DNA from: Candidatus Terraquivivens tikiterensis
GTDB lineage: Archaea > Thermoproteota > Nitrososphaeria_A > Caldarchaeales > Wolframiiraptoraceae
NCBI GenBank assembly: GCA_003056285.1
Contig: NDWU01000001.1
Coordinates: forward strand, 101,236 to 161,417
DNA: 60,182 nucleotides
Direction: 5' to 3'
Shown here: piece after piece, positions 19,565 through 33,853 of the stretch
Position numbering within the stretch: position 1 is the first letter of the stretch
Layout: every line of letters begins with the position of its first letter
Position numbers and translations under genes: made by a program
The notes under the pieces: generated by a model
What the model saw: only the letters and a program-made list of their open reading frames with translations
Told to the model about the DNA's origin: nothing
The model's database searches: none

Positions 19565-19952
19565 CCCGTGTCTTTACCATTTCCATCCCCATCAACGTGT
19601 CCAAGACGTACCTAAGGGCTGTGCTTTCCAGCATGCCGGCTTTCTTAACGTGCCTCCTCGTGGTCCCTAGATTCCTTTTGAAGGAGCCTGTCCAGCATAT
19701 CGCACCGTTTTATAGCCCATACACCATTTCAAAAGCTCGTGCGGAGGTATCGGAACGCTACGTTATGACGGCTCCTAAACCCGGAGGAGGGTTAGACACC
19801 AGCGATTACCCAACGAATCGTCCGCTAGAGCCTTGAGAAGGTCTAAGGCTTAGAAGGAAGTTATGAGACCTCGGCGATCTATTGCATGCTATCAAAGCAT
19901 TTTCATGAAAATATTTAAATGTCATGTTTATTTAAAAATGTATGGTGATCTT
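19565..19952. other. Gene-free stretch before vapBC
   Basis: About 390 bases downstream of ilvC with no supportable gene; the short open frames show no codon bias or start signal. TATA-like ATATTTAAAT at 19911-19920 and TTTATTTAAAAAT at 19928-19940 belong to the promoter of the following toxin-antitoxin pair. Confidence 0.5.
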
Positions 19953-20192
19953 ATGGGATACATTGCAAAGGTTACAAGCAGACGAATGGTAACAATCCCC
20001 GCTAGGATAATGAGGAAGTATGGGATTAAAGAGGGGATGAGGGTTAAGTTCGTTGAAGCTGAAACTGGAGTATTACTCATTCCCATCCCTAAACTTGAGG
20101 AGTTCCACGGCATAGACCGTCACCACGCATCAGCGATCATCGAGGGAATAAGGGAGCTTGAGGCTGAACATCGTAAAGAGGCGGGAGAATGA
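19953..20192 (+). CDS. vapB: AbrB/VapB-type antitoxin
   Basis: DNA-binding antitoxin of about 79 residues. The N-terminus GYIAKVTSRRMVTIPARIMRKYGIKEG is a swapped-hairpin AbrB fold, the usual DNA-binding half; the C-terminal helix (ASAIIEGIRELEAEHRKEAGE) should wrap the toxin. I chose the ATG at 19953, which has GGTGAT upstream; the frame is open further but without signals. It overlaps vapC by four bases (ATGA), the normal coupling of antitoxin and toxin. Likely autoregulated from the adjacent TATA boxes. Confidence 0.85.
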   Translation: MGYIAKVTSRRMVTIPARIMRKYGIKEGMRVKFVEAETGVLLIPIPKLEEFHGIDRHHASAIIEGIRELEAEHRKEAGE

Positions 20193-20587
20193 AAAGGTAT
20201 GTAGTTGACGCCGGAGTGCTATTCCTACTTTTTATTGGTGATGAGAGGGTTAAGCCCTACTTTGACGAGGTCGCCCGGGGCCAGGCCCAAGCATACATCT
20301 CAGACATAAACCTAGCTGAATACTATTACAAGACGTGCGAAAAACTTGGGAAAGAAATCGCTGAACTTCGATACCATCAGATAAGGGCTTCGGACATAGT
20401 GCCGGTTGCAACGGATGAAGGGCTTACATGGAAAGCTGGCGAAAAGAAATGCAAATACAAAGGCAAGCTTTCGCTTGCAGACTGCTTCTCCCTAGCCCTT
20501 TCCGAGCTAAAGAAGGCGACGCTACTAATAACGGATAACGAGCTAGCAAAAGTCAAGGAAGTGACTGTTAAACACTTCCCAATCTAA
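20189..20587 (+). CDS. vapC: PIN-domain toxin VapC
   Basis: Predicted ribonuclease toxin, 132 residues. The PIN acidic residues are in place: D8 in VVDAGVLF, E44 in NLAEYYY, D97 in LSLADCFSLAL and D115 in LITDNELAK. It is coupled to the upstream antitoxin gene. A fragment of the dispersed IS200/IS605-like element begins directly at its stop codon, so the 3' boundary may be an insertion point. VapBC pairs often accompany islands; this one lies just outside the proposed left attachment site. Confidence 0.9.
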   Translation: MKRYVVDAGVLFLLFIGDERVKPYFDEVARGQAQAYISDINLAEYYYKTCEKLGKEIAELRYHQIRASDIVPVATDEGLTWKAGEKKCKYKGKLSLADCFSLALSELKKATLLITDNELAKVKEVTVKHFPI

Positions 20588-20610
20588 AGGTTCCCGCCCA
20601 TGATGTTAGA
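20588..20610 (-). repeat. Terminal fragment of the dispersed IS200/IS605-like element
   Basis: The bases GGTTCCCGCCCATGATGTTA match the high-coordinate end of copy A (GGTTTCCCGCCCACGATGTTA) with one deletion and one substitution. Only this end remains. It lies between the vapC stop codon and the left attachment repeat of the island. Confidence 0.55.
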
Positions 20611-20615
20611 AAATA

Positions 20616-20629
20616 GGTGGGCCGGGTGG
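20616..20629. repeat. Left attachment repeat (attR-like) of the island
   Basis: GGTGGGCCGGGTGG is a perfect 14-base copy of 33779-33792, which is the 3' end of tRNA-Val(TAC) including part of the encoded CCA. The bases on the island side differ afterwards. A shared 14-mer at exactly a tRNA 3' terminus, in the same orientation, is what site-specific integration into a tRNA gene leaves behind. Confidence 0.65.
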
Positions 20630-20766
20630 TATGTAATTAAAAAATTAAGTGAGTCCTTTTTGTTGATACTTTGGAAATGAATTGGGCGGGATGATTAGAT
20701 AAATTTTTAACCCCAAACCCAAAAAGGCATGCTGGAGTTTTATTTTGTAAAGTCTTTGCATTGCAA

Positions 20767-21332
20767 TTAGCTGGAGAGGTTCGAAGGTTTAAATGATTTT
20801 TCCCGCTGCATCTTTTTCCTTTGCTCGATTAGTAATTTAGCAATTTTTGCTCCGTTCCAAAGTTCGATACCATGTTTTATCGCTAATTCTCTTGCAGGTT
20901 TCGTAAAATCGGTTGTAGTGATATATATTCCCTTTTTTGCTTTATATTCGGTTATCATCATGCCAATGAATTTCTGAATTTCTGGCGAACTAACTTTTTG
21001 ACTCGTATATCTCTTGTATTGAACAATCACAGATTCTCCATTCGCATCCTTGCATGATATATCTCTGCTTAGATCACCTGACCCCCAGTCACTCTAACGT
21101 GCATATAGCCTAGATCTCCAAGCAGGGTTGCCATAGCCCTTTCAAACCGAGATGGAGTCGATGACATTAATTCCTGAAGGGTTTCAACTCTTATTTTATA
21201 GTACCTAGTATACCAAAAGATGAACAGAATAAGCGATAATGCCAGAAGCGGAAGCCCTATTAACGGATAAAGAATTGATAAGAAAACTAATATTATAAAG
21301 ATCAAAGCCCAACCATTACCTTTACGCTTCAC
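20767..21332 (-). pseudogene. Membrane-anchored Mrr-like restriction endonuclease, frameshifted
   Basis: Two overlapping reading frames together encode one protein of about 187 residues: two N-terminal transmembrane helices (FIILVFLSILY and LPLLALSLILFIFWY), a short linker, then a nuclease domain beginning FERAMATLLGDLGY. The catalytic pattern of the Mrr/RecB-like fold is present: an aspartate in SGDLSRDIS and Q-x-K in VQYKRY. The frame breaks in a run of five G/C at 21082-21086; one more base would restore VTGG-SGDLSRD. So the gene is either recently inactivated or carries a sequencing error. The role would be cleavage of foreign or modified DNA. Adjacent to the left boundary of the island. 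Confidence 0.7.
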
Positions 21333-21357
21333 ATGCGGTCACTTCTAGAGATAACTC

Positions 21358-21580
21358 TTAATAAACCAAGAAAATCTCTACTGTTTGACCTTCTTCGATG
21401 GTTATCCATGTGAATTCAAATGTTTCTGACTCACCCATATACAGGTTTTCTATTAAATCATAATCGTAGGTTCTAAAATCCGCAGAACCGTCTGGATTCC
21501 TCAGTATTAAATAGACATACACTTTCTCGATAGGTTTGTCGCCGATGTTTGTGATAGTTCCATTAACAGTCCACGACCAG
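21358..21580 (-). pseudogene. C-terminal fragment of a secreted-type beta-domain protein
   Basis: About 73 residues from SWTVNGTITNIGDKPIEKVYV to GQTVEIFLVY resemble the C-terminal half of a FxLYD/CARDB-like beta-sandwich (N-G-x-I-x-N-x-G-D-K-P pattern). Upstream of about 21580 the frame runs into sequence that makes sense only on the other strand, so the 5' part has been lost. Function unknown. Confidence 0.45.
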
Positions 21581-21587
21581 CGCGCGG

Positions 21588-21802
21588 GGAAAAGACAAGT
21601 TTTAAACCCTGAGAGGACAAGAGAGCTAACGGAAGAGCTTAACCGCCTCTTTGAAGCTAAGGTTGAAATTCCAAGGATCAGATGGGGTGAAAAACAAACC
21701 TTAGAAACTTTAATTAACGAAGAAGCTTTCTTGTTTGCTAAATATTTAAGAGGTGAACGTGAAGCATGGATTCCGAGGATTGTCATCCCAACTAACGATT
21801 AG
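21588..21802 (+). pseudogene. C-terminal fragment of an unrecognised protein
   Basis: About 70 residues, from KRQVLNPERTRELTEELN to IVIPTND, have the look of a real protein end (helical, charged, with a WGEKQTLETL motif) and end in a clean stop. The 5' side is cut at about 21585, exactly where the opposite-strand fragment is also cut. I do not recognise the family. Confidence 0.35.
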
Positions 21803-21812
21803 AGGTTAGAGT

Positions 21813-22396
21813 ATGGAAGTGGAAAAAGTAAAAAGAATCACGAAAGCTACGAAAGTTGCTCTGATTGTAACTATCATCCTCATAGTCATACTAATTTCGT
21901 ATATTATGTTTAATTGGTCTGGATCACCGTTTTATGATCCAGCAAGAAAGATTCCTTCCCCCCTATTATAAGGATGAGGGTTTTGTAGATAATACTTTAG
22001 AAAATTTTGGAAAATCTTCTAGTAAGGATGCCTATTCCGAATTATTACAAGGAAGGCGTGTTTGATTGTAGTGAGCGAAGCGCTTATGTCGAGTGGTATT
22101 TAGAGAATCATGGGATACCTGCACGCATTGTTGTAGGATATGCAAAGCCTTTCCTAGGAGAAGGTGGAAATCACGCTTGGGTTGAAGCCTATGTTAAAGC
22201 TGGAATTTACGGATACGGATGGGTAAGGATTGAAACTTCCGAAATGAGCTTATTTGGCGGAGTATACATTCACACCCTCACAATATTTGATGCTCTATTT
22301 ACAGAGTATGAACCAAAAATCTATTTTGAAGACATTTATGAGGCTGTTCGATATTACCGATCAACCATTGAATGGGACTGGTGGAATGTGGAATGA
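21813..22396 (+). pseudogene. Membrane-anchored transglutaminase-like protein, two frameshifts
   Basis: Three consecutive frames make one protein of about 190 residues. The first encodes a cytoplasmic start and a transmembrane helix (VALIVTIILIVILISYIMF). The second encodes PPYYKDEGFVDNTLENFGK. The third encodes the transglutaminase-like core with Cys in VFDCSERSAYVEWYLE, PARIVVGYAKPF and His in NHAWVEAYV, plus an acidic residue after WVRIE. Frame breaks fall in a run of six C at 21958-21963 and near 22005-22020. The Cys/His residues survive, so inactivation is recent or apparent. Such proteins act outside the cell as peptidases or cross-linkers. Confidence 0.65.
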
Positions 22397-22488
22397 TGGA
22401 ACAATTTTCTATGAATTAAGAATGTAAGCAGGAACAAAAGTATAACTGTGAAATATCGATTGATAAATCAATGAAACACCCACGTCTT

Positions 22489-22824
22489 TTAGTCTTCTAG
22501 GAAGCCCATCTGACTAAATGCCTTAATGACTTCTAACAACTTATTAGTCAGCGTATATGGACTAAAATATGTTATGATATTCTTCCTTTCAGTTCTATGC
22601 CTTTCTTGACACAAAACCTCCAATACGTAGAAATCTTTTTCAGATAAAGACCACATCTTGTTGTTAAGCACAATTAGCTTCTTTAAGGAGGGCTTTCCAC
22701 CTACATCATGAACAGTCTTAACCAGCTTATGAAGCCTTGTGCGTGTTGGGTTATTAGGACTATTGCGAGTGCTAGGCATGCGAATATTGATAGGTCTTTT
22801 GCGTTGATTGTTGAGAGGTTCCAT
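22489..22824 (-). CDS. Hypothetical protein, winged-helix-like end
   Basis: The usable part is about 80 residues starting around HDVGGKPSLKKLIVLNNKMWSLSEKDFYVLEVL and ending SQMGFLED. The pattern of short helices (SEKDFYVLEVLCQ, TLTNKLLEVIKAF) could be a small winged helix, but I recognise no family. The first ~40 codons overlap the membrane-protein gene at 22701-23105 in another frame and are probably not translated, so the real start is uncertain (an internal ATG at MWSLSEK is one choice). Last gene of the leftward secreted-protein cluster. Confidence 0.35.
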   Translation of the reverse strand: MEPLNNQRKRPINIRMPSTRNSPNNPTRTRLHKLVKTVHDVGGKPSLKKLIVLNNKMWSLSEKDFYVLEVLCQERHRTERKNIITYFSPYTLTNKLLEVIKAFSQMGFLED

Positions 22825-23105
22825 AGGTATTTTCCAACTTTCGTCAAGCTATTGCAGTATGGTTCAGAGTTTAGGTATCCCTTTAAAGTGTAGTATGCTC
22901 CGAAGATGAAGGCTAAGGATGTTAGGAAAACTATTGTGCTTGACAGGTGAGGGTTTAAACCGTAATGCATAAGGAGTCTAACGTAGGGGTTTGCTTCAGA
23001 CCATGCCGGATACCTGCTTAACCCGATCTGCGTAACTGCGTAGTCTAGTGAGTCTAAAATAATGGTTAAGGCGAAAACTGTTTTATATAATGTTTTGAAC
23101 TGCAT
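22701..23105 (-). CDS. Small polytopic membrane protein
   Basis: 134 residues with about four hydrophobic segments: VFALTIILDSLDYAVTQIGL, HLSSTIVFLTSLAFIFGAYY and IFACLALAIVLITQ, plus a weaker one. The first segment followed by SEANPYVRLLM resembles DUF5658-type archaeal membrane proteins (D-x-x-x-T followed by E-x-N-P). Function unknown. Lies between the secreted-protein gene at 23119 and the putative winged-helix gene, all leftward, so it is probably part of the same transcript. Confidence 0.55.
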   Translation of the reverse strand: MQFKTLYKTVFALTIILDSLDYAVTQIGLSRYPAWSEANPYVRLLMHYGLNPHLSSTIVFLTSLAFIFGAYYTLKGYLNSEPYCNSLTKVGKYLWNLSTINAKDLSIFACLALAIVLITQHAQGFISWLRLFMM

Positions 23106-23118
23106 GAAACCCGCCTGT

Positions 23119-23562
23119 TCAGGATTGTATCGTATAATTTAGAAGCCATTCATAATAGGTTTTAGGTGAAGTTAGGTTTAGGTTTGATTCCTCAGAAGCC
23201 CAAACTGCAACTGAAACTTCACCTTCGGCTGAAACGCTTCCAGCAACATAGTTCATGCGGACATCCACACAGTAATAGTCTTCGGGTAAGGTCACGTTTT
23301 TAACGGTTTCATCTAGAAGTTTAAGGGGTAAAGTTACAACGGCCCTAGCTTCGTCATGAATAACTATCTGCACAACAAGGCTTGTGAAGTGTTTCTCTAA
23401 AACGTCACACCCTAAAAGCTTGAAGAAAACTGTTAAATTCTGTTTTGGAACGTTTAGGTTGAAGGCTTCAGTTATGTTTATCCAGCCATGCGAGTTCGCT
23501 TGCAGGTTAACCGTATTAATATGCTGTATGTTCACGATGAGGGGGACGAGTTCATAGTTCAC
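23119..23562 (-). CDS. Secreted beta-rich protein; start uncertain
   Basis: 147 residues from a GTG at 23562, rich in beta-strand patterns and N-glycosylation sequons (NLT, NVT, NIT). In frame upstream there is a hydrophobic stretch that would make a fine signal anchor (KYLLALNFLLCSFLISSFG, to about 23655), but no ATG, GTG or TTG precedes it before the stop. So either a rare start codon is used, or the signal has been cut off. No known family. Third in the row of leftward secreted proteins. Confidence 0.5.
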   Translation of the reverse strand: MNYELVPLIVNIQHINTVNLQANSHGWINITEAFNLNVPKQNLTVFFKLLGCDVLEKHFTSLVVQIVIHDEARAVVTLPLKLLDETVKNVTLPEDYYCVDVRMNYVAGSVSAEGEVSVAVWASEESNLNLTSPKTYYEWLLNYTIQS

Positions 23563-23669
23563 AATCCACGGATAATTTTTGGTTCCAAATGAAGATATTA
23601 AAAATGAACATAGCAGAAAATTTAAAGCAAGTAAATATTTGAGGTAAGTAAAAAACTTCGGGATAGCAA

Positions 23670-24209
23670 TTATGAACCCTCAACAAACCATATTTGTATT
23701 GGAAAACTATCCTGAACAGTGCCTGTCACCGCTTTTGTCTGATATGTAACCTTAATTTTCACGTCGTAATGTCCCAGTTCCGAAGCAGAAAACATAATTT
23801 CAATTCTCAAATCCCCATCATAGACAGTCCCACCACTCACAATTGTTTTTTCGGCTTTCATAAGCACTCCTGAGAGATAGAACTCTACTTTTATCGACAA
23901 ATCCTCAAAAGCGTTCGCCATTTCAGGCTTAGACACTATCCTCAATTTTAACGTTCCAGGCTTTACGACTTCAACAAAAGTTGTTCCTATCAGTGTGTCA
24001 GTAGCTGTTGTTGCACCGCTCGTATTTATGTAAAAAGTCTTCGTTTCCGTTAAAGGCTTGATTGTGTAGCTAACTGACCAACTATAATATTGGGCTGCGT
24101 AAGAGCCCAAAATAATGAGCATAAACATTAAAGATATTACGAAAACAGGCTTTCTAACAAAACAAGATAAAATGTGGGAAAATTGGGGCTTCCTCAACTC
24201 GTTCCTCAC
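23670..24209 (-). CDS. Secreted beta-sandwich protein, paralogue of the 24220 gene
   Basis: 179 residues with an N-terminal signal anchor (VFVISLMFMLIILGSYA) followed by AAQYYSWSVSYTIKPLTETKTF and a beta-rich body ending IWFVEGS. The segment after the signal (QYYSW-SYTIKPL, then TSGATTATDT) lines up with QYYTW-SYSINPL and TSGATSGTY in the neighbour at 24220-24723, so the two are paralogues in tandem, 10 bases apart. The signal anchor followed directly by a beta domain is the layout of TasA/camelysin-like fibre subunits; that relation is only a guess from architecture. Confidence 0.55.
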   Translation of the reverse strand: MRNELRKPQFSHILSCFVRKPVFVISLMFMLIILGSYAAQYYSWSVSYTIKPLTETKTFYINTSGATTATDTLIGTTFVEVVKPGTLKLRIVSKPEMANAFEDLSIKVEFYLSGVLMKAEKTIVSGGTVYDGDLRIEIMFSASELGHYDVKIKVTYQTKAVTGTVQDSFPIQIWFVEGS

Positions 24210-24219
24210 CTCTATACTA

Positions 24220-24723
24220 CTACTCTACCGCGTAAGTGTTCACTGTAAAGGAACCACCTACTGTATCGGTAACAGCTCCTGTCCAATAATCGACAGTAAC
24301 GTATAGATCGTAACTTCCGCCTCCTACTCCATTGATGCTGACATCCAAAGTTGTTCCTGGTGCGCCATTAACAACTATGTGCATCGTTTGGCTACCAACG
24401 GTTCCCAATGTAAACGTTACATCAAGACTATAATAATCGTCTGCAAGCGCAGAAGCGTTGAAGCTGGTTACCATAAAATGCACGTTCACGGTCTTCCTTG
24501 AGGGCACGGAAATCGTTGCAATCGGAGATGTTGGCACGTAGGTTCCACTCGTTGCTCCCGACGTATCCGGAATCGTTATGTCTACGATGCTCGTTGCTAA
24601 TGGGTTAATACTGTAACTTGCAGTCCAAGTGTAATATTGCGATTCAAACGCCAGTCCTATTATTCCAGCCATCATTAAAGCAATAGCCAAAAAGCCCTTC
24701 TTTCCATTCAACAACTTAAACAT
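24220..24723 (-). CDS. Secreted beta-sandwich protein, first gene of surface-protein cluster
   Basis: 167 residues: positively charged start (FKLLNGKKG), one hydrophobic signal anchor (FLAIALMMAGIIGLAF), then a threonine/serine/glycine-rich beta domain ending SFTVNTYAVE. GGTGAA lies upstream of the ATG at 24723. Threonine-rich beta domains of this type form extracellular filaments or coats in several archaea, but I cannot name the family. It heads a leftward cluster of three secreted proteins, a membrane protein and a short basic protein. Confidence 0.55.
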   Translation of the reverse strand: MFKLLNGKKGFLAIALMMAGIIGLAFESQYYTWTASYSINPLATSIVDITIPDTSGATSGTYVPTSPIATISVPSRKTVNVHFMVTSFNASALADDYYSLDVTFTLGTVGSQTMHIVVNGAPGTTLDVSINGVGGGSYDLYVTVDYWTGAVTDTVGGSFTVNTYAVE

Positions 24724-24907
24724 TTAATTCACCTTTCTTATTGTTAGCTTTTGTTTCATCAAATTCTTTTTAAGAATTGTGGAATATTATGCTATCACAA
24801 TTTGCTGTCACATTATACCAGTATTTTGTCCTAGAACAATCTACCATCACAATATTCCTTAAAGCTTTTAAAATTTGGGTGCGAAATTTGCGTTTTGAGG
24901 GTTAAAC

Positions 24908-25319
24908 TTGAATGAACGCTTCTTCCTATACGTGGTCGAGGACGGTGAATGGCATAGGCTTGAGGATGTAGCCGAGGAGCTTGGAATATCCATTGGAAGG
25001 GTTAGGGATGCGGCTGAATACTTGGCTAGGGGAAAACTCGTCCATTACGATAGAGAGAGGTGAAGTAAAAATTCAAGATTGGCTTAAAAAGCTTCCGAGG
25101 GCTGAATGGGAGAAGCCAGGTGCGAAATCCACCGGAACAGTGGTGATATCTAAGGGTGGAAACGTCACACTTCAAGGAACAACCATATGTAATGAGACGG
25201 AACAAGATTTAGAGCTAATGTTCCTTGTAGTTGACGGAAAAATTAAAGAAATAACGATAAACAGGCTTCCAGAAACTAAAAACGAGCCTTCCCCCGTAAA
25301 CTCTCACGAAACTTTTTGA
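24908..25319 (+). pseudogene. Winged-helix protein split by a frameshift
   Basis: A TTG start at 24908 opens a 51-residue frame with a clear winged-helix start (WHRLEDVAEELGISIGRVRDAAEYLARGKL) that stops at 25063. Another frame immediately continues the protein from RGEVKIQDWLKKLPRAEWEKPG to NSHETF at 25319, with a threonine/glycine beta segment (TGTVVISKGGNVTLQGTT). One base lost or gained in GAGAGAGG at 25052-25060 would join them into about 135 residues. Probably a regulator for one of the adjacent divergent clusters, now broken unless the shift is a sequencing error. Confidence 0.5.
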
Positions 25320-25492
25320 AAAACTTAAGGGTTTCAACACCCCTAACCGTAGTCCTATAAACAACATCGCAAAAGAAGGAATAACATACGAAATAAACCC
25401 GTCACTAATATAAACATGTCCTAAAATCTCCAAGGCAAACACTCCACGCTAAAACAACAATTGGATATTTTAATTCCATTGTGGACAATATG

Positions 25493-25535
25493 GTGTTACG
25501 GAAAGAGAAAAGTTTATTACCATCTTTGGTAACAC
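25493..25535 (+). promoter_or_regulatory. Candidate operator and promoter of the metal-transport operon
   Basis: Two nested inverted repeats precede the transporter operon: TTACCA-TCTT-TGGTAA at 25517-25532, and GTGTTAC at 25493-25499 with GTAACAC at 25529-25535. A TATA-like GTTTATTA lies at 25512-25519, so a protein bound here would cover the promoter. The arrangement suits a metal-dependent repressor such as a NikR, DtxR or Fur-like protein; which one cannot be told. Confidence 0.45.
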
Positions 25536-25560
25536 AAAATTCTAAAAAAGTAATACGAAA

Positions 25561-26727
25561 GTGGTTGTCATGAATGCCCGTAAGGTTTGGATATGCGTGG
25601 TAGTAATTGTTATAGCGTTGGTGGCCGGATTAGCGGCCGCATTTTATTATACCAGAATGTTGGGTTATAAAGAGGAAGTCGGGCCGATCGTGGTCACAGA
25701 CCTCGCTGGTAGAACCCTAACATTTGAGAAACCTGTCGAGCGAATAATACTGCAATATAGCGGAAGTGGTGGCGCCTTCTACACCTTATTTGCCTTGGAA
25801 GGCAGGGATGCCTATAAAAGAATCGTTGGTATCGACCCCGGATTGAAGAAGTACCGGTACGACATATGGCAAGAGTTTGTCAAGGTCATTCCGGAGTTAG
25901 AAAACATACCTGACGTTGGAAGCATTGAGGATGGAACATTTGGTGTTGAGAAAGTCATTTCCTTGAGACCAGACGTCGTCATAATTCCTTTATGCTCAAA
26001 GGATGGAGCTGAAGACATAATTAAAAAACTGGAGGAGGCTAAAATAAAGACAGTTTTCATTGATTACCATGCTGAAACAATAGAGAATCATGTAAAGAGC
26101 ATTACCTTATTAGGAAAAATTTTGGGGAAAGAGGAAAGGGCTAAGGAGCTTATAGATTTTTACGTAGGGCATGTTAACGAAGTATATTCTCGTTTAGAGA
26201 AGATAAACAAGACAAAGCCAAAAGTCTACGTGGAATGCGGCATGAAAGGGCCGTCTGAATATGGTAATACCTACGGCAGCAACTTCATGTGGGGCGCATT
26301 GATTGTTAAGTGTGGAGGAATAAACATTGCTGAAGGCAAAGTGCAAACTTGGGCTCCAATAAACCCAGAATATCTCCTATCTGCGAATCCAGACGTGATC
26401 ATCATAACGGGCGCTTATTGGCCTGCTTATCCCACTTCATTCAGGCTTGGGTTTAACGCCACGTTAGAAAAAGCGAGAGATAGCCTCAGACTATTCACGG
26501 AACGCCCAGGCTGGGAAGCGCTCAACGCTGTGAGGAATCATAGAGTCTACGGCATCTATCATGGTCTTTCAAGAGATATTTGGGACTTTGCACCTATAGA
26601 ATTCATGGCAAAATGCTTCTATCCAGATGAGTTTAAAGATATAGACCCTGAAAAGGACCTCAAAGAGTTCTTTGAACGATTTCTGCCCATACCCTATTCC
26701 GGAGTTTGGATGATGTCTTTATGGTAA
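25561..26727 (+). CDS. ABC transporter substrate-binding protein, siderophore/cobalamin/metal-chelate type
   Basis: Extracytoplasmic binding lipoprotein-like or signal-anchored protein, 388 residues, of the FecB/BtuF fold (Peripla_BP_2). A transmembrane start (VWICVVVIVIALVAGLAAAFYY) anchors it. Core landmarks: VVTDLAGRTLTFEKPVERII at the front, VISLRPDVVIIP (about residue 140), VYVECG near the domain hinge, and NPDVIIITG with RPGWEALNAVRNHRVYGI in the C-lobe. The ligand would be a metal chelate or corrinoid. First gene of a rightward operon with permease, ATPase, DUF4198-like protein and two methyltransferases. Start GTG at 25561 or ATG at 25570. Confidence 0.88.
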   Translation: MVVMNARKVWICVVVIVIALVAGLAAAFYYTRMLGYKEEVGPIVVTDLAGRTLTFEKPVERIILQYSGSGGAFYTLFALEGRDAYKRIVGIDPGLKKYRYDIWQEFVKVIPELENIPDVGSIEDGTFGVEKVISLRPDVVIIPLCSKDGAEDIIKKLEEAKIKTVFIDYHAETIENHVKSITLLGKILGKEERAKELIDFYVGHVNEVYSRLEKINKTKPKVYVECGMKGPSEYGNTYGSNFMWGALIVKCGGINIAEGKVQTWAPINPEYLLSANPDVIIITGAYWPAYPTSFRLGFNATLEKARDSLRLFTERPGWEALNAVRNHRVYGIYHGLSRDIWDFAPIEFMAKCFYPDEFKDIDPEKDLKEFFERFLPIPYSGVWMMSLW

Positions 26728-26772
26728 CACTACATGAACAACATGGCTTTCATAAAATAGTGGCAATGAGCA

Positions 26773-27870
26773 TTGATGGCGGCTTTAAGCGAGGTCATAA
26801 AAATGTGTTTGAGGGTGATGGCAGTAAAGGAAACGAAGGGTAAAGAGCTTTACAAGAAAATAGTGTGGCGAAAACTTGTACTGGTGATTTCGCTTGCAGT
26901 CACGTGCGCGCTTACATTACTATTAGACATTTCAACGGGGCCTTCACAGCTTTCGCTTTTTGAAGTATTTTCCACCATTATTTCGCCAAATCATAGCGAC
27001 CCTGTCACTCATACCATCATTTGGACTATAAGATTGCCAATGGCTTTAATGGCGATCGTCGTTGGTGCAGCGCTCGGCGTTGCGGGTGCGGAAATGCAGA
27101 CAATCCTCAACAACCCTCTGGCAAGCCCTTATACACTTGGCGTATCTGCTGGGGCAGGGTTTGGTGCCGCACTGGCAATTGTCCTCGGCGCAGGAGTTAT
27201 TCCGTATATCGGTGAATTCGTCACATCCATTAATGCATTCATCTTCTCTTTGCTCACATGTCTATTGATTTATCTTATCGCCAAGGCAGGGAGAATGGCT
27301 GCGGAGACAATGATACTTGCTGGGATTGCAGTAACGCTCTTGTTCCATTCACTTTTAGCTTTGCTTGAATATATTGCCTCACCAGAAGCTTTACAGGCAA
27401 TAGTTTTTTGGCTTTTCGGAAGCCTCACAAAGGCGACATTGCTGAAAGTAGGTATCACGTCTGTAGGTTTGCTCGCTGTCGTCGCATTTCTCTCCACAAG
27501 AGTCTGGAGATTAACCGCTTTGAGGCTGGGAGACGAGAAAGCTAAGAGTTTAGGAATAAATGTTGAAAAGTTAAGGTTAGAAGTATTTATATGCGTTTCT
27601 CTTCTCACAGCTGTTGCAGTGTGCTTTGTTGGGACAATAGGGTTCATAGGGCTCGTAGGTCCACATATAGCGAGAATGTGTGTAGGGGAGGAACAGAGGT
27701 TTTTCCTACCAATGTCGCTTCTCGGCGGTGCCGTTACGCTTTCAGCGGCATCAGTCATTAGTAAATTAGTTGTACCCGGCATCTATTTCCCAATTGGAAT
27801 AATCACTTCTTTAATAGGTCTCCCATTCTTTCTTTCAATAATCCTCATGAAAAGGAGGGGATACTGGTGA
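26773..27870 (+). CDS. FecCD-family ABC transporter permease
   Basis: Inner-membrane permease of the iron-siderophore/cobalamin class, up to 365 residues, with about ten transmembrane helices. Family marks: IRLPMALMAIVVGAALGVAGAEMQ, NNPLASPYTLGVSAGAGFGAA, and, near the end, GTIGFIGLVGPHIARMCVGEEQRFFLP. An N-terminal extension before the first helix is unusual; an internal ATG at 26818 (AVKETKG) may be the true start. Its stop overlaps the start of the ATPase gene by four bases. Confidence 0.92.
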   Translation: MMAALSEVIKMCLRVMAVKETKGKELYKKIVWRKLVLVISLAVTCALTLLLDISTGPSQLSLFEVFSTIISPNHSDPVTHTIIWTIRLPMALMAIVVGAALGVAGAEMQTILNNPLASPYTLGVSAGAGFGAALAIVLGAGVIPYIGEFVTSINAFIFSLLTCLLIYLIAKAGRMAAETMILAGIAVTLLFHSLLALLEYIASPEALQAIVFWLFGSLTKATLLKVGITSVGLLAVVAFLSTRVWRLTALRLGDEKAKSLGINVEKLRLEVFICVSLLTAVAVCFVGTIGFIGLVGPHIARMCVGEEQRFFLPMSLLGGAVTLSAASVISKLVVPGIYFPIGIITSLIGLPFFLSIILMKRRGYW

Positions 27871-28664
27871 GTTTAGAAGTGCGCAATTTAAGCTTCTCTT
27901 ACGGTGCAACGAGTGTCTTAAAAAATATCAACATGAAACCTTTGCCCGGAAAAATAACGGCAATCATAGGCCCAAACGCCTCAGGGAAGACGACGCTCCT
28001 TAAATGCATATGTGGGATCTTGAAGCCGATAGAGGGAAGTGTTCTATTTGAGGGGAGGGAGATAAGCAAAATCAGAAAAGAAGAGCTTGCAAAGCACATA
28101 GCTTACATGCCACAAGAAAATCCCGCGGTAGCGTTTTTAACAGTGTTCGAAACGGTGCTTCTTGGAAGACTGCATTCTTTGTCTTGGAGGGTTAGCGACG
28201 AGGATCTTGAAATGACCCTAAAAACGTTGGAAAGCTTGGGGATTAGCGAGCTATCATCGAGATTTCTCTCCGAACTCAGTGCAGGGCAACGACAGCTGGT
28301 CTACATAGCACAAGCAGTCGTTCATCAGCCTAGAGTGCTTCTTTTGGACGAACCCACAAGCAATCTGGACCTTCAGCACCAGCTAGAGGTTCTTGACCTC
28401 ATAAAGGAGCTGACATCTGAAATGAGAATTACAACAATTATCGCTTTGCATGACCTCAATTTGGCGGCTAAATATTCCGATGAAGTAATTGTGCTGAACT
28501 TTGGCAGAGTTTACGCTGCAGGAAAGCCGGAATCAGTATTGTCTGAAGACATGTTGAGAGCAGTTTACGGAGTCAGTGCCAAGGTTAACGCTCACGATGG
28601 GGTGCTTCAAATAACAATACTCAACTCTATCAGAAAACGACTTGCCAAGAAAAAATGTGGCTGA
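27867..28664 (+). CDS. ABC transporter ATP-binding protein, FecE/BtuD type
   Basis: ATPase of the metal-chelate transporter, 265 residues. Walker A GPNASGKTTLL, Q-loop in YMPQENP, signature LSAGQRQL, Walker B VLLLDEPTSNLD and switch His in ALHDLN are all intact. Starts with GTG overlapping the permease stop and preceded by GGAGGGG, so translation is coupled. The basic C-terminal tail extends slightly beyond the usual end. Confidence 0.94.
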   Translation: MSLEVRNLSFSYGATSVLKNINMKPLPGKITAIIGPNASGKTTLLKCICGILKPIEGSVLFEGREISKIRKEELAKHIAYMPQENPAVAFLTVFETVLLGRLHSLSWRVSDEDLEMTLKTLESLGISELSSRFLSELSAGQRQLVYIAQAVVHQPRVLLLDEPTSNLDLQHQLEVLDLIKELTSEMRITTIIALHDLNLAAKYSDEVIVLNFGRVYAAGKPESVLSEDMLRAVYGVSAKVNAHDGVLQITILNSIRKRLAKKKCG

Positions 28665-28675
28665 GGAGGAAAAAG

Positions 28676-29449
28676 ATGAGAGAAAGGAGCTGGAAGAGTC
28701 CTTGGGGAAAAAATAGCAATCATGTAATATGGCTAGAGCCAAACAAAGCAGCGTACAATGTGAATGAGGATGTCGAGATAAAAGTATTCTGGGGCAGTGT
28801 TCGAAATCCAGAAGTCGGAGAATACGAGGATTGGCTTGCGTATCTGCTTGATCCCGAAGGCGCGCGTTTAGAGTTGCCCATAAGACGAGAAATGCTACGA
28901 TTTAGTGGTGGAAAACCATTTTTCTTCCTTGCCTTTAAACCAAGGAAGAGCGGACCCTACACAATAATGCTGGAGAACAATTATGGAGTTCTGAACAAAC
29001 TTAAAGATGGAGACTGGACTTATGGTCCGAAAAGATACCATAGAAACGTCGAGGAAAGCATATATTTCTATCAGTATGCAAAGACCATAGTTCCAGTGGG
29101 AGAGTCAACTCAGGGATCCACAAGGGTTGGGAATGAGCTGGAGATAATCACAACAAAAACAGGGTTTTATGTAAACGATATCATGGAACTTACATTACTT
29201 TGTCGAGGGTCGCCACTTCCCCGAGCCCAGATTAAAGCGGTATACGGTATTTACCCCCACATAAAAGAAGAGACTGCAGAGACAGACATGAATGGAAAAG
29301 CTGGATTTCATATTAAAGAAAAAGGAGTCTGGCTGTTTGTTGCAGAACACAAAATTATGGAGGGGGTAGATGGTGAATATGATTACAAGTGGCTCACGGC
29401 AACTCTTTCACTACCGGTACGAGGGATAAAGAATGCAAAACATGATTGA
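28676..29449 (+). CDS. DUF4198-like (COG5266-type) protein without signal peptide
   Basis: 257 residues from the ATG at 28676, which has GGAGG seven bases upstream. The body has two beta-sandwich-like parts: HVIWLEPNKAAYNVNEDVEIKVFWG at the front, and, after an SAPV-like linker, GNELEIITTKTGFYVNDIMELTLLCRGSPL followed by TDMNGKAGFHIKEKGVWLFVAEHK. This resembles DUF4198 proteins, linked to cobalt/nickel uptake and normally exported. Here the N-terminus (MRERSWKSPWGKNSN) has no hydrophobic signal, so it would stay in the cytoplasm or use another anchor. Its 3' end overlaps the first methyltransferase gene by 17 bases. Confidence 0.6.
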   Translation: MRERSWKSPWGKNSNHVIWLEPNKAAYNVNEDVEIKVFWGSVRNPEVGEYEDWLAYLLDPEGARLELPIRREMLRFSGGKPFFFLAFKPRKSGPYTIMLENNYGVLNKLKDGDWTYGPKRYHRNVEESIYFYQYAKTIVPVGESTQGSTRVGNELEIITTKTGFYVNDIMELTLLCRGSPLPRAQIKAVYGIYPHIKEETAETDMNGKAGFHIKEKGVWLFVAEHKIMEGVDGEYDYKWLTATLSLPVRGIKNAKHD

Positions 29450-30251
29450 TTGGGAAAAAGAGTGGAAAGAAAAGACAAGGGAAGAGAAGAAGAACGCCAG
29501 CAGACTGGATTTGCTCGACTACTGGAATAAAAGGGCTGAAGATTACACAGACTATATAAAAACAAGCAATTATGAGCACGGTAGAAAAATAGTGGAGCTC
29601 TTTGAAAGAGAGGGAATATTGAAACCCGAATTCGAAGTTCTCGACATTGGTGCTGGGCCTGGATCGGTTTCCATACCCTTTGCGGAGGTTGTGAAGAAAG
29701 TAACAGCAATAGAGCCTTCAAGCGAAATGGTTAAGCGCTTAATGAAAAATGCCGCGGAGAAAGGCCTTAAAAATATTGAGGTGATAAATAAGAAATGGGA
29801 AGAGGTGAATACTTCCGAGTTTGAGGCAAAATTTGACCTAGTAGTCGCTTCGCATGTTACATGGCTTTTCGAAGATATCGTAGATTTCATAATGAGGATG
29901 AATCGCGTATCAAGAAAATATTGTTGTATTGCCGAAGGCATTTTCTCTAATAGAAATTGGGGCAATGTTTACAAAGAATTGAAAATAACCCCACAAACAT
30001 TCGACCGTTTCATTTACATATACAATATTCTGTACCAGAGAGGCATACCCGCCAACGTTAAGATAATCGATACCCTTATGAGACGTTCTGTGCAATCCGC
30101 AATAAGCATGTTTGAACTTTTTCTCAGCAAGTACAGAGAGCCGACGGATGAGGATAGGAAAATTATCAGAAATCATGTGCTTATGAACTCTGAGGACGGC
30201 ATATACAAGAAAGAAGGGAAGATGGCGGTAGTGTGGTGGCGGAAAGAATGA
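29433..30251 (+). CDS. Class I SAM-dependent methyltransferase
   Basis: 272 residues. SAM-binding motif I is VLDIGAGPGSVSIPFAE (about residue 70), motif II VTAIEPSSEMVKRL, and the later FDLVVASHVTWLFEDIVDFI gives motifs III/IV. The N-terminal SRLDLLDYWNKRAEDYTDYI segment occurs in small-molecule methyltransferases associated with metal-transport operons of archaea. The substrate is unknown. The start overlaps the preceding gene, so expression is coupled to transport. Confidence 0.85.
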   Translation: MQNMIDWEKEWKEKTREEKKNASRLDLLDYWNKRAEDYTDYIKTSNYEHGRKIVELFEREGILKPEFEVLDIGAGPGSVSIPFAEVVKKVTAIEPSSEMVKRLMKNAAEKGLKNIEVINKKWEEVNTSEFEAKFDLVVASHVTWLFEDIVDFIMRMNRVSRKYCCIAEGIFSNRNWGNVYKELKITPQTFDRFIYIYNILYQRGIPANVKIIDTLMRRSVQSAISMFELFLSKYREPTDEDRKIIRNHVLMNSEDGIYKKEGKMAVVWWRKE

Positions 30252-30279
30252 ATGCCTCCCTTTGTGAAAGGTGATGTCA

Positions 30280-31212
30280 ATGAAAGTATACGATGTTGTG
30301 CGGAGATACTGGAATGAGCAAGGAGCGCAAATTTATGATAGGATAAACTGGATTAATCGGGAGAAAATGAAAGAGACGCTGCTCAAGTATCTGGGTATAG
30401 ACAAAAAAGGTGTTATACTCGATTTTGGAACTGGTACAGGATTTCTTGCGTCAATATTGGCTGAAGCGGGTTACAAAAAGATCATAGGTGTAGACATAAA
30501 CGAGCATATGCTCCATATAGCAAAGGAAAAATTGGCAGGTTACTCTGTGAAATTGGTGCAAGGCGATGGACTACATCTGCCAATTGCAGATAATTCAATA
30601 GACGCTGTTGTAAGCAGGTGGGTTCTCTGGGTGATGCCTAACCCGGAAAGGGCGATAGAGGAAATGGTAAGAGTAACAAGACCTGGGGGTGTAATCCTTA
30701 CACTTGAAAGCGATAACGCTAAGGAATGGAAAAAGCCGTCCCTACGAAGGAAACTTTCAGGCTTTCCGATTAGGCATTTATATTCGCTCTACTTGGAGAA
30801 AGTCTTAGGAAAACATAGAGGTCTTACCACAAAGCAATTTTGGAAAGAAACCGAAGGAAAGCTGCCACTATACTCTCTTGACGAGTATGTCAAAATATTC
30901 AATCAGAAAGGTCTTATGCATATAGTGAGAACGGATGAAGAAGATTATGGAACACTACGTGCAAAATTGGTTTTTGGTGGTTTCAAATTCTCATTAATCA
31001 GAGGCATCAAACCTGGCAGGACAAGTAAAGGCATAACAAGAAATCAAGAATGGGAGGAGAACGAGTTACTAAGAATTATAGTGTGCCCACTATGCCATTC
31101 AAGTTTAGCGATAAAGGACGAAATAGGATATGAATGCAAGCGATGTGGTAAAACTTATCCAATAAAACATGAGATACCAATTTTGCTTCCCCCAGAAGAT
31201 TTACTCCAATAA
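30280..31212 (+). CDS. SAM-dependent methyltransferase with C-terminal zinc ribbon
   Basis: About 310 residues. A UbiE/MenG-like fold: VILDFGTGTGFLASILAEAG (motif I), IIGVDINEHML, then SIDAVVSRWVLWVMPNPERAIEEMVRVTRPGG. The last ~50 residues carry a Trm112-like ribbon, CPLCHS and CKRCGKTYPI, ending IPILLPPEDLL. Fusion of such a ribbon to a small-molecule methyltransferase is uncommon. AAAGGTGA sits eight bases before the ATG at 30280. Last gene of the metal-transport operon; 28 nt after the first methyltransferase. Confidence 0.85.
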   Translation: MKVYDVVRRYWNEQGAQIYDRINWINREKMKETLLKYLGIDKKGVILDFGTGTGFLASILAEAGYKKIIGVDINEHMLHIAKEKLAGYSVKLVQGDGLHLPIADNSIDAVVSRWVLWVMPNPERAIEEMVRVTRPGGVILTLESDNAKEWKKPSLRRKLSGFPIRHLYSLYLEKVLGKHRGLTTKQFWKETEGKLPLYSLDEYVKIFNQKGLMHIVRTDEEDYGTLRAKLVFGGFKFSLIRGIKPGRTSKGITRNQEWEENELLRIIVCPLCHSSLAIKDEIGYECKRCGKTYPIKHEIPILLPPEDLLQ

Positions 31213-31328
31213 GCAAAACAATTAAATAATTTTGAGATACTGCAACGAAAAATTCCTTTCAAGATAATCCGCGAAAATTCTGTTAGTAACGTATAACCGA
31301 AATGAGGGAGGCGTAAAACAGTAGTCTA

Positions 31329-31439
31329 TTATGATTTTGATGCGGCGATTCCTGCGAGGATTATGGAGGCCATAATTATCCAAAAGAGGCATGCGAGGGC
31401 ATGGGTAGCGGAGGCTGTAATCTCCTCAAACATCTCCAT
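31329..31439 (-). CDS. Possible small single-helix membrane protein
   Basis: A 36-residue frame with acidic start (MEMFEEITASATHAL) and one hydrophobic helix (LACLFWIIMASIILAGIAA). A TATA-like TTTTAAATC lies about 20-25 bases upstream on the same strand, which would give a leaderless message. No homologue is recognised. The rest of 31213-31603 shows nothing else. Confidence 0.3.
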   Translation of the reverse strand: MEMFEEITASATHALACLFWIIMASIILAGIAASKS

Positions 31440-31603
31440 CAGCTCAAAAAGATTTAAAATCGGTTGGCTTTTAAGTGATGTTTCAGTTGAGAAAATAGCT
31501 CGAGTTTTGATATGTCTTTTAATATGCTGAGAGATGTTTTAGGTTCTAAATGTTTGTTGATTTCTCACGGTTACTTTTAGTTCTGTGCCCTTCTCCGGTT
31601 CCT

Positions 31604-32150
31604 TCAAGTTTTTAGGTATTCTTTAACACGCTTAACCAGTTGCTTATCTGTTTGGAGCATGGCCACAACTATTCGGAAGCGAACTTCTGTTAGGTTCGCT
31701 TCGCCTTTTACAACATCCCGCACGGTTATCGCTCGCTTCATATCTGTTGCTTCGGAAATTCCGCGCTTTTCTTTTATGCTTCCCTGCGCCTTTCCCCTTC
31801 TTTTCAGTCGAACTCCCCCACGTGGAAGCATAGCGTTCAGCTTTGCGGATGAAATGCGTGAACTGGAATGTTTTTGTTTCTTTATATTTTAAGCCCATGT
31901 TGGAGTAGAGCTCCCTCACGATTGCTTTTAGCAGTAGCTGAGCTCCTAGACCAAAGATTTTTTCAAGGGCGGCAGCAAACTTTTCGGGATTCTTATACCA
32001 CATGTCCCTCTTTATCCCGGAGGCTTTTTCTATGTAGTAATATGTTGCCTGCCTCCCAGTCTCCCCCAATAGAAGCATAGCCCCCATCAACCGCTGAAAT
32101 AAATAGTTCTTCGAAGGATGAATCTGAAACTTTAGAGAACCCTTGTCCAA
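31604..32150 (-). pseudogene. Unrecognised protein, apparently frameshifted
   Basis: Two overlapping leftward frames. The upstream one (from 32150) encodes LKFQIHPSKNYLFQRLMG, GRQATYYYIEKASGIKRDMWYKN and FGLGAQLLLKAIVRELY, a helical protein of about 110 residues before turning into a basic nonsense tail. The other, ending at 31604, encodes TDMKRAITVRDVVKGEANLTEVRFRIVVAMLQTDKQLVKRVKEYL, which looks genuine. The shift would be near 31800-31850. I do not recognise the family. Confidence 0.4.
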
Positions 32151-32179
32151 AGGTATCTCCTTTTAATTACAAGAATTTA

Positions 32180-32207
32180 GGTATATAATTAAAAGATTAA
32201 GTGAATC
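32180..32207. repeat. Near-copy of the island left-end sequence (20628-20655)
   Basis: GGTATATAATTAAAAGATTA and the next eight bases match 20628-20655 (GGTATGTAATTAAAAAATTA and onward) at 25 of 28 positions, in the same orientation. The left copy starts at the end of the 14-base attachment repeat. This suggests duplicated element ends or a composite island. Confidence 0.45.
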
Positions 32208-32756
32208 TCTCTTTAAAAGAGAGGGGCGATTGGTGGGAGGAGGTAGCTCGTTTTCAAATCCTCCTGATGCTCTACAGGAGATTTCAGTCTAGATACTTAT
32301 GTAGATGAGGGGGTTGCCCAAGGGTATAGAGTATTTCTTCCCCTCCATAGATCCCCAACCTATTTCTCAGCCCTCTTCTACCGGTGCTTCCAATATACAA
32401 TACCCCCTCCGTCTATGCCTAAAACCCTACAAATGGTGATGGCCTCCCTCCTCTAATCCAAAAGACGATATATACACCAGAATCATCAGGCACATCCTCG
32501 AAGTTTTTTAATGAAAGCCTTATGAGCGGCTCCAAAGTTAAGGGACTCATCGTGCTTTCAGCGGTAATAGATGGCCGAAGCAAAGTTCTTGAATTTTATG
32601 GTGACCGATAGCTAGGCGAGGAGCGTTTAACATTAGTAACCTCAAAAGGAGTTTTAGAAAATGATGGCCTTGTATAAAAGGCCGTTTAAAAAGCGTTTTA
32701 CCGTCCTACCGGCTTCCAGCCGTCCTTAATTAATGGTTTCCGTATACCCCTAAAAG

Positions 32757-32885
32757 TGGATAAATTTATCCATTTAAGCGCCCTCTCGTATTCTTAGCTT
32801 TATTCAACCCTTTGTAAAATACTGAAGTGGTTAAATTTAACCACTAAAACATAATGTTGGTATTCTTAATGGGTAAAATTTTACC
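32757..32885. promoter_or_regulatory. Cluster of three perfect AT-core palindromes
   Basis: TGGATAAATTTATCCA (32757-32772), AGTGGTTAAATTTAACCACT (32826-32845) and GGTAAAATTTTACC (32872-32885) are perfect palindromes sharing a GG...AATT...CC plan, spaced 71 and 43 bases centre to centre. Such sets are typical of operator arrays, partition sites or plasmid origins. No gene for a cognate protein is adjacent, so the role is open. Confidence 0.5.
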
Positions 32886-33100
32886 TGTAAGTAACAGCTC
32901 TGCATGTTCGTGAACTACAAAAATACCATTCATGTTAGAGACACGTTAATTCTGTTTTCGCCCTCACCATTATGTTTAACATATCATCTACAAAGTAAAA
33001 GTCGGAATCGCTTATAACGTTTATGAGGAATGTTGATAACGCTCTTACGTCCATCATATGGCTTTCTTTAGGAGTGTAACCTAAAAGCCCAGAAGGAGTA

Positions 33101-33419
33101 ATGAAGGCTTTTTTGCTTCAGTGTTTCCTATGCATTCCTTCTGAGAGGGTTTTAGCTGAAAAGCTGGCTAAATGCAGGGATTACAGGCGGATTTGCGGTT
33201 TTAGGCGTAAAACGCCAAGCAGGGGCTGCTTTACATATTTTAGGCGGAACCGTTTCAAGGAATAAAGGTTCAGGGAGGCTTTCAATTTCATGGTTGGTCA
33301 GGCCATAGCCTTAGGCGCTGTTAAGGGCTACGTTTTAGCTATCGATTCAACAGCCTTTAAGACTTACAGCGCCAGAGACGCAAAGAAGGTAAAGTCTGAT
33401 CCGGATGCGGATGTTCACC
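33101..33419 (+). pseudogene. IS5/IS4-like transposase remnant
   Basis: The frame reads MKAFLLQCFLCIPSERVLAEK, KCRDYRRICGF and FTYFRRNRFKE, then an in-frame TAA near 33265, and continues in the same frame REAFNFMVGQAIALG...GYVLAIDSTAFKTYSARDAKKVKSDPDADV. The AIDSTAFK segment carries the first catalytic aspartate of a DDE transposase. Similarity ends at about 33415, where the DNA becomes the integrase gene of the other strand. So the transposase has a stop codon and lacks its C-terminal half. Confidence 0.65.
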
Positions 33420-33731
33420 TTAAGCTTAACGTTCAAACCGTTGTACGAAAACCAGGAGTGGAGGGCCTTCTTGAACCTCGCTATGTAGGAGCCGGCCTTC
33501 CCCCTCCCCCTCGAGCCTCCTCACGAAGTCGCTGAAACTGTCCCTGAAGTCCTTCGTTCCGGCGGCTCTCAATATGCTCTTAGGGTCGGTCCTGTTCAGC
33601 TCGCAGAATAGGCCCAGGGTCCTGAGGTAGACTGTGGGCGTAACGTAGGACTTGGCGGCGAGGTTCTCGAACCACCTCTTCACGTCCTCGTCCTTCAGCA
33701 GGTCCTTATACTTGGCCTTCTCCATAACCAA
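33412..33731 (-). pseudogene. Archaeal tyrosine-recombinase (integrase) N-terminal part, frameshifted and truncated
   Basis: The first ~77 residues (YKDLLKDEDVKRWFENLAAK, TPTVYLRTLGLFCELNRTDP, DFVRRLEGEG) are the SAM-like N-terminal domain of archaeal XerC-like integrases. One extra G in the GAGGGGGAGGGGG tract near 33498-33510 shifts the frame; the next frame continues KAGSYIARFKKALHSWFSYN and LNVKLKVN until it meets the transposase remnant. The catalytic domain is missing. The gene starts about 50 bases from the tRNA end of the island, where an integrase belongs. Confidence 0.65.
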
Positions 33732-33778
33732 GGAATGTTATATTTAGGGTTTATTTAAGGTATTCACTTAAAAATTTT

Positions 33779-33792
33779 GGTGGGCCGGGTGG
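33779..33792. repeat. Right attachment repeat (attL-like), in tRNA-Val(TAC) 3' end
   Basis: GGTGGGCCGGGTGG on the plus strand; complement of the acceptor 3' strand plus encoded CC of the tRNA. Perfect match to 20616-20629. Confidence 0.65.
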
Positions 33793-33853
33793 GACTCGAA
33801 CCCACGACCTCTGCCTCGTAAGGGCAGCGTCATAGCCGCTAGACCACCGGCCC
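33781..33853 (-). tRNA. tRNA-Val (anticodon TAC)
   Basis: A 73-base tRNA on the minus strand: acceptor GGGCCGG/CCGGCCC, D arm GTCT...TGAC, anticodon stem CTGCC/GGCAG around loop CTTACGA (anticodon TAC), variable AGGTC, T arm GTGGG-TTCGAGT-CCCAC, discriminator A, and genomic CCA at 33778-33780. No intron. The 3' end is one attachment repeat of the genomic island; the gene is intact. Confidence 0.95.

Follow-up and report, generated by a model that had tools for sequence, protein, structure and literature searches.

What are two methyltransferases and a protein of the DUF4198 family doing in a predicted operon for metal uptake? The question is raised by a block of six genes within a 60,182 nt stretch of contig NDWU01000001.1 from Candidatus Terraquivivens tikiterensis, the whole of which is called the window in the following. 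Positions 25561-31212 are filled by six co-directional open reading frames (ORFs) of 264-388 codons each:

25561..26727, + strand: solute-binding protein (PBP) anchored by a hydrophobic segment at the N-terminus, Peripla_BP_2, YiuA / Veillonella FepB (4mo9) clade; matches 4mo9 of Veillonella parvula with 410 bits over residues 41-386 and YiuA (6b2x) with 180 bits
26773..27870, + strand: FecCD-family permease
27867..28664, + strand: ATP-binding cassette (ABC) ATPase; Walker A (GPNASGKTT), LSAGQ and LLLDEP all intact
28655..29449, + strand: DUF4198 protein, predicted NikK/Zcp fold (Pfam, AlphaFold2 model, alignment of relatives)
29433..30251, + strand: MT1, class I S-adenosylmethionine (SAM) methyltransferase of an importer-linked family (Pfam, neighbourhoods of relatives)
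30271..31212, + strand: MT2, second class I SAM methyltransferase, also from a family linked to importers, ending in a CxxC...CxxC (Trm112-like) tail (Pfam, neighbourhoods, tree)

Adjacent genes overlap at three of the five junctions (by 4, 10 and 17 bp), and gaps of 45 bp and 19 bp separate PBP from permease and MT1 from MT2. In Pfam the importer genes match Peripla_BP_2 (E 3.6e-25), FecCD (1.5e-85) and ABC_tran (5.8e-34), the remaining genes DUF4198 (2.9e-25; 90 bits at a cut-off of 34), Methyltransf_25 (4e-14) and Methyltransf_11 (4.2e-26). The LDxGxGxG motif is intact in MT1 and in MT2. Judged by these matches and motifs, PBP, permease and ATPase constitute a FecBCD (type II) ABC importer operon. 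An earlier note on this DNA had already described six overlapping genes in one direction with an importer of the metal-chelate type, and both descriptions are borne out. The host is taken as an archaeon. A promoter and terminator scan, which assumes sigma-70 promoters, stayed at chance level.

Our tentative answer, which we consider possible but short of probable, is a chelate importer, preferentially for nickel, with methyltransferases acting on the imported ligand and the DUF4198 protein receiving the metal. The anchored PBP would capture the metal, bound to a small organic ligand, outside the cell, and the FecC-type permease would carry the chelate inward in an ATP-driven manner. In the cytoplasm, SAM-dependent methylation of the imported ligand, or of its donor groups, by MT1 and MT2 would discharge the metal or trap the ligand. 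The DUF4198 protein would then take over or buffer the metal. Taken separately, methylation of the ligand by MT1 and MT2 appears moderately probable. Given such methylation, it is again fairly likely that the purpose would be to release or trap something already imported and not to synthesise a chelator.

Methyltransferase families beside importers

MT1 alone was used to search 250 genomes of the phylum (E<=1e-12), which led to 23 places in 18 genomes including the window. A solute-binding protein (SBP) or permease is located within 1.5 kb in 19 of the 22 non-window loci, with PBP-MT1-permease as a common gene order. Among the three misses, L094 and L095 exhibit an adjacent ATPase followed by the rest of a FecBCD operon, and L106 has none. 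A scan of a wider genome collection with the MT1 alignment returned at least 74 loci. The count uses MT1-type ORFs at E<1e-10 in 28 of them (L120-L145, L148, L160; n=31), and 15 of these ORFs, mostly from methanogens, have an importer part (FecB/C or Nik/Opp) within 1.5 kb. MT1 is thus strongly linked to importers in archaea, but only in part in bacteria. Outside the SAM core the family is invariant in W7, W31, N198, N208 and W269 (window numbering, 20 sequences).

MT2 behaves similarly. When 100 genomes of the methanogen phylum were searched with only MT2 as query (E<=1e-18), 32 places in 19 genomes emerged, and the neighbourhood count comprises 34 MT2-type ORFs (phmmer E<1e-17) in 25 loci. 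An importer component lies within 1.5 kb of 26 of the 34, namely a Nik/Opp-type SBP or permease in 18 cases and FecB or FecC in 8. For comparison, none of 36 weakly matching methyltransferase ORFs (46 loci of the wider MT1 scan) has an importer within this distance, whereby the control is imperfect in that these ORFs are mostly derived from other taxa (bacteria). Typical orders are SBP-MT2-permease-permease-ATPase-ATPase (L285, L287, L297) and MT2-PBP-permease-ATPase (L245-L247). The earlier note had suggested that the methyltransferases could build, modify or release a small metallophore or tetrapyrrole, and in so far as this ties them to the importer, the recurrence of both families beside importers agrees with it. 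Given this repeated occurrence of both enzyme families within importer operons, they should act on the importer ligand or on a precursor of it. Moreover, operons with only importer and methyltransferase among their labelled genes exist (L285, L287, L289, L297, L245-L247). The smallest recurring unit is an importer with one methyltransferase, and therefore the enzyme would act on the import or on a common metabolite.

The MT2 tree (62 rows) places the window enzyme on the importer-associated side, apart from 16 of 17 controls, with a split support of only 83/88. Fec and Nik neighbours are mixed in this tree and Fec needs 7 changes, so that the importer type switches while the MT2-type enzyme persists. 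Window MT2 pairs with L203_13615 (99/91), but this pair carries a warning that two long branches meet in it. Nik/Opp-type operons (L224, L285, L287 and others) share with the window an MT2-family enzyme and often DUF4198, but use SBP_bac_5 and two permeases in place of FecBCD. FecB-type and Nik/Opp-type importer parts occur together with MT2 in L283 and L294. In L283, MT2 is present in triplicate and is accompanied by a CooC-like ATPase as well as a Gate-domain protein.

Among the NCBIfam matches listed (best 25 of 55 for MT1, best 25 of 66 for MT2), no equivalog cut-off is attained by either enzyme. An FkbM subfamily domain is barely passed by MT1 (38.9 vs 37.7). CpaM is among its best matches with 49.5 bits, under the curated cut-off of 180, as is DVU_1556 for MT2 (72 bits, cut-off 155). 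The RNA-modifying families KsgA (26.7/171), Erm (29/212), RlmD (34.6/183.55) and RsmG (27.6/99.5 bits) remain below cut-off for MT1. Membership in an unrelated rRNA or tRNA modification family, which the earlier note had named as one of two outcomes that would contradict it, is thus not indicated by the NCBIfam matches listed, but MT1 does pass Pfam RrnaAD (41.6 vs 24), GidB (27.9 vs 27) and Methyltransf_15 (22.8 vs 22). These three matches sit over the SAM core and are all below Methyltransf_25 (53.5). The CxxC...CxxC tail of MT2 is visible in the sequence and gives a sub-threshold Trm112p match (21.7 bits vs a cut-off of 22). It is carried by none of 44 non-control MT2 homologs.

The DUF4198 protein and the imported metal

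PF10670 over its cut-off together with the model match places the protein in the DUF4198 / NikK fold. The AlphaFold2 model (predicted local distance difference test, pLDDT, 88.2) resembles Zcp (9mhi-9mhn, Z 22.7-23.4) and nickel-bound IsDUF4198/NikK (9gcb, Z 21.1), and the next structural match follows only at Z 6.6. In the excerpt of PMC12537917, IsDUF4198 binds Ni with a dissociation constant of 18 nM via its N-terminal histidine and His18. Within the structural match range H23 of the window protein falls on the first of these histidines, and the mapping of His18 is unsure. The H23 position is a histidine in 19 of 20 relatives. Unlike NikK / IsDUF4198, the window protein has no signal peptide, no free N-terminal histidine and has lost conserved histidines. 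Hence the nickel-binding signature of the family, a histidine that becomes N-terminal on cleavage of the signal peptide together with another conserved histidine, was not found. As the signal peptide is missing, the protein is probably cytoplasmic. Components of energy-coupling factor transporters (NikKMLQO / CbiMNQO) are absent among the six genes according to Pfam, including the NikK partners NikM, NikL, NikQ and NikO.

Relatives of the protein are present in 4 of 15 genomes reached through MT1 loci. In two phyla searched at E<=1e-8, 4/148 and 9/199 genomes matched (centre genome counted each time). Their neighbours were counted within 6 kb in 22 loci, including L280 from the MT2 search and the weak or doubtful L209, L235 and L236. 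A Nik/Opp importer is found in 17 and an MT1- or MT2-type enzyme in 16 of them, followed by a CooC-like ATPase (5), a Gate-domain membrane protein (5), FmdE (2) and one instance each of CfbA, CbiM and FecBC. The 13 loci obtained by phylum-wide DUF4198 searches only (L224-L236) give counts of 11/13 for Nik/Opp and 8/13 for MT1/MT2-type. CfbA exceeds its curated cut-off (139 vs 120 bits) and CbiM is clear. The CbiM locus also contains apparent hypA, hypB and hydrogenase genes, as read from the sequence. Two Nik-type SBPs match the NikA model with 233 and 296 bits, under the cut-off of 393.

These neighbourhoods (Nik/Opp, CfbA, CbiM, CooC-like) thus favour nickel, albeit unproven, and together with the Ni-binding relative they support the nickel part of the cobalt/nickel link of DUF4198 drawn in the earlier note. 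The host would have a use for it in view of its two [NiFe]-hydrogenase large subunits, in which both CxxC motifs (RxCGxC and DPCxxC) are present. All in all we regard nickel as the imported metal with slightly more confidence than doubt.

Some details of these loci are worth recording. In L203 the CfbA sirohydrochlorin nickelochelatase gene (7470-7934) adjoins the DUF4198 gene, with Nik/Opp sets and MT2 enzymes on both sides. An O-methyltransferase with dimerisation domain directly follows DUF4198 in a Nik/Opp cluster (L202, 3420-4451). The Gate-type membrane protein recurs near DUF4198 or MT2 plus FecBCD (L228, L230, L231, L232, L280, L245, L247); the L228 copy matches PF07670, and the L245 copy, without a Pfam match at 1e-5, is labelled by its similarity to the former.

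DUF4198 as a trait of the phylum was considered and rejected, the window protein matching only its own genome among 250. PF10670 itself was found in 29 of 398 genomes at E<=1e-3. Eight exceed the cut-off: in the own genome a single match suffices, and the other seven get there only via several short matches in the same frame. Among the 32 matches listed, the one in the window spans positions 4-208 of the 209 in the model. The runners-up in length are all sub-cut-off (G062, 42-192 in an ORF of 1980 amino acids (aa); G037, 65-197, 280 aa; G361, 81-197, 734 aa).

The exact six-gene set is seen once, in the window. It comes closest to L208 of a methanogen (FecBCD, DUF4198 and two MT1) and to L294 (FecB-type protein, MT1, MT2 and Nik/Opp components). 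As to conservation of the gene set, which the earlier note had proposed to examine, its parts are therefore repeatedly linked elsewhere as pairs and triples, but FecBCD, DUF4198, MT1 and MT2 were not refound together. Each part falls in a known superfamily, and any novelty would lie in the recurring combination, the six-gene set and the proposed enzymatic step. In the open-licence literature we found no published account of sets of importer, DUF4198 and methyltransferase. The excerpt of the paper on the mlp gene cluster (PMC10418091) mentions neither an ABC transporter nor CpaM nor DUF4198.

Ligand of the importer and competing explanations

YiuABC / FepB-type importers (YiuA 6b2x, 4mo9) share the PBP clade, the FecCD permease and the ATPase with the window. 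YiuA is a proposed siderophore-binding protein, for which binding residues are proposed as well (PMC5683015, in excerpt). Its residues R64/R165/R223/H331/Y334 correspond to G71/H170/G227/H334/S337 in the window PBP. The basic triad of YiuA is thereby missing (G/H/G), which we count in favour of our explanation. H170 and H334 stand at or near YiuA ligand positions. In an alignment of 53 rows, both L107 domains, L246, L247 and one of the two domains of L245 retain H334, which L108 and most other rows have lost. H170 is shared by domain 1 of L107 and by a single distant row from L290. Both histidines are shared with 4mo9 in the alignment obtained from the sequence search. In the methanogen phylum, 3 of 148 genomes have PBP matches at E<=1e-40 (40-42% identity), and in all three MT2 is located directly upstream of FecBCD. 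In the Dethiobacter-type phylum no such match was obtained (0/239 genomes at E<=1e-40) in a run without positive control, for which an empty outcome proves nothing.

Apart from the imperfect control mentioned above, several observations weigh against a nickel chelate importer with ligand methylation. The PBP clade is annotated as iron/siderophore. Thirteen phylum loci chosen by PBP similarity (L107-L119, the best matches of 74 genomes matched, the two closest included) carry no MT1, MT2 or DUF4198 label, so FecBCD operons often manage without them. Vice versa, 16 of the 31 wider MT1 ORFs have no importer within 1.5 kb, mostly in bacteria (e.g. Ktedonobacter, Thermogemmatispora), and FecBC stands beside DUF4198 solely at L208 among the 22 loci. 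In the structure search the MT1 model (pLDDT 86.9) matches generic class I methyltransferases at close Z values and resembles many different small-molecule enzymes to a similar degree. Compared with its relatives, the window DUF4198 has an alignment gap in place of the GHNM histidine (17 of 20 relatives) and E150 in place of the VGH one (12/20), so that its metal site appears altered or lost. Moreover, residues H29, H31 and H142 of Zcp, named in the title of a triple-mutant structure, are seemingly absent according to a tentative mapping. Relatives of DUF4198 are tied to zinc, copper and cobalt by the Zcp structure titles and the family to iron (excerpt of PMC11870441), and orphan NikK proteins were suggested to act in Ni-independent pathways (excerpt of PMC2667541).

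Some of these counts also raise the case for an ordinary ferric-siderophore importer, to which the methyltransferases (for RNA, protein, quinone or other substrates) would be mere bystanders, joined to it accidentally or through common regulation within the island. The presence of YiuA in the PBP clade is consistent with such an arrangement, as are the RrnaAD match of MT1 across the SAM core, the loci with only one of the two partners and the Trm112-like tail of MT2; Trm112 activates RNA and protein methyltransferases. However, genes of both types recur in importer operons at the rates given above, the arginine triad of YiuA is missing and the tail is not shared by the homologs. We regard this explanation as quite unlikely. 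Uptake of a tetrapyrrole or corrinoid (heme, cobinamide, nickel tetrapyrrole), which the methyltransferases would tailor or salvage, likewise finds some backing: the permease matches BtuC with 206 bits (cut-off 334) and the ATPase the heme-transport ATPase with 224 (cut-off 261). The structural neighbours tied for MT1 include the porphyrin methyltransferase ChlM (Z 19.2), CfbA of the L203 locus with DUF4198 and MT2 is the nickelochelatase of F430 synthesis, and the two PBP histidines would fit as well. Yet the three importer proteins reach none of the NCBIfam cut-offs for heme, B12 or F420 transporters among the matches listed (F420-0 permease 185 vs 437, F420-0 ATPase 234 vs 372), and the closest sequence relatives of MT1 are not tetrapyrrole enzymes (BchM-ChlM 23.1 vs 158.9). 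Such a tetrapyrrole route is the least likely of the alternatives in our estimate.

The methyltransferases could also make a secreted metallophore, e.g. from a common metabolite that they methylate, the metal-loaded form of which would be retrieved by the importer in the manner of staphylopine. In the CntABCDF staphylopine system metal-chelate import is coupled with a SAM-using enzyme, and staphylopine is made and then re-imported. Two Nik/Opp-type SBPs from loci with DUF4198 and MT2 indeed match staphylopine-binding CntA with 189 and 216 bits, under the cut-off of 800, and two Nik/Opp plus DUF4198 clusters contain a major facilitator superfamily transporter as candidate chelator exporter (L227, 9442-10590; L231, 11866-13023). 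In contrast to the Opp-type importer of CntABCDF, the window encodes FecBCD, and a nicotianamine-synthase-like (CntL) or opine-dehydrogenase (CntM) match was not found by Pfam in the six genes. Nicotianamine-synthase-like enzymes are also lacking among the structure matches listed for the MT1 model, which excludes nothing. Furthermore, several operons of importer and methyltransferase are devoid of a further enzyme or exporter among their labelled genes. We hold synthesis of a metallophore to be unlikely.

Island context and wider meaning

The block lies on a low-GC island, where the G+C content is 0.35-0.48 (400-bp bins, 19801-33400) vs 0.53-0.61 in the flanking bins. Two features mark its edges:

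20616..20629, strand not assigned: repeat of 14 bp from the 3' end of tRNA-Val (33779-33792) near the left island edge, possibly what remains of an attachment site
33778..33853, - strand: tRNA-Val (TAC), right border of the island

Among 200 76-mers drawn at random in the flank on the right, 3 matched at equal or greater length, and the repeat is therefore suggestive of an attachment site but no proof of one. With the window DUF4198 as query and with PBP (E up to 1e-12), no match was obtained in five genomes of the same genus (G009, G025, G033, G041, G116). With PF10670, G009 gave a weak match of 20 bits (positions 148-194) inside an ORF of 1079 aa. Since DUF4198 and PBP were unfound in these genomes, the block looks acquired, probably as part of an acquired island. 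Regarding mobile copies, plasmids gave no match, and viral contigs gave two pattern-matching stretches, neither of which encodes a relative.

The earlier note had called the block the only intact one in a decaying island. The low GC content supports the island, but the claim of a single intact block is too strong: an apparently intact pair of MazE/AbrB-like antitoxin and PIN-domain toxin lies at the left border (19863-20587). The stretch 22701-24723 comprises four small ORFs on the - strand that lack a Pfam match, at least two of which (23670-24209 and 24220-24723) have an N-terminal hydrophobic segment and may encode secreted proteins. Besides, there is a fragment-like transglutaminase-core ORF (22007-22396). 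The ORF adjoining the tRNA (33426-33731, - strand) has no Pfam match, but its sequence resembles that of a tyrosine recombinase in the N-terminal part.

In a broader sense, MT1 and MT2 might represent a widespread importer-coupled class in archaea and anaerobic bacteria that empties chelates via donor-atom methylation, works with FecBCD as well as Nik/Opp importers and delivers nickel through a cytoplasmic DUF4198 protein. This generalisation is doubtful. For orphan NikK genes neighbourhoods gave no functional clue (excerpt of PMC2667541), against which the recurrence of the NikK-fold DUF4198 beside Nik/Opp importers and methyltransferases is set here. The question becomes testable through one binding protein and two soluble enzymes. 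Uptake of chelates of nickel and other scarce metals, and the freeing of the metal inside the cell, are poorly known in archaea and anaerobic bacteria. For siderophores, reductive and hydrolytic routes of metal release are known. If the generalisation above is true, a release based on methylation would differ from both.

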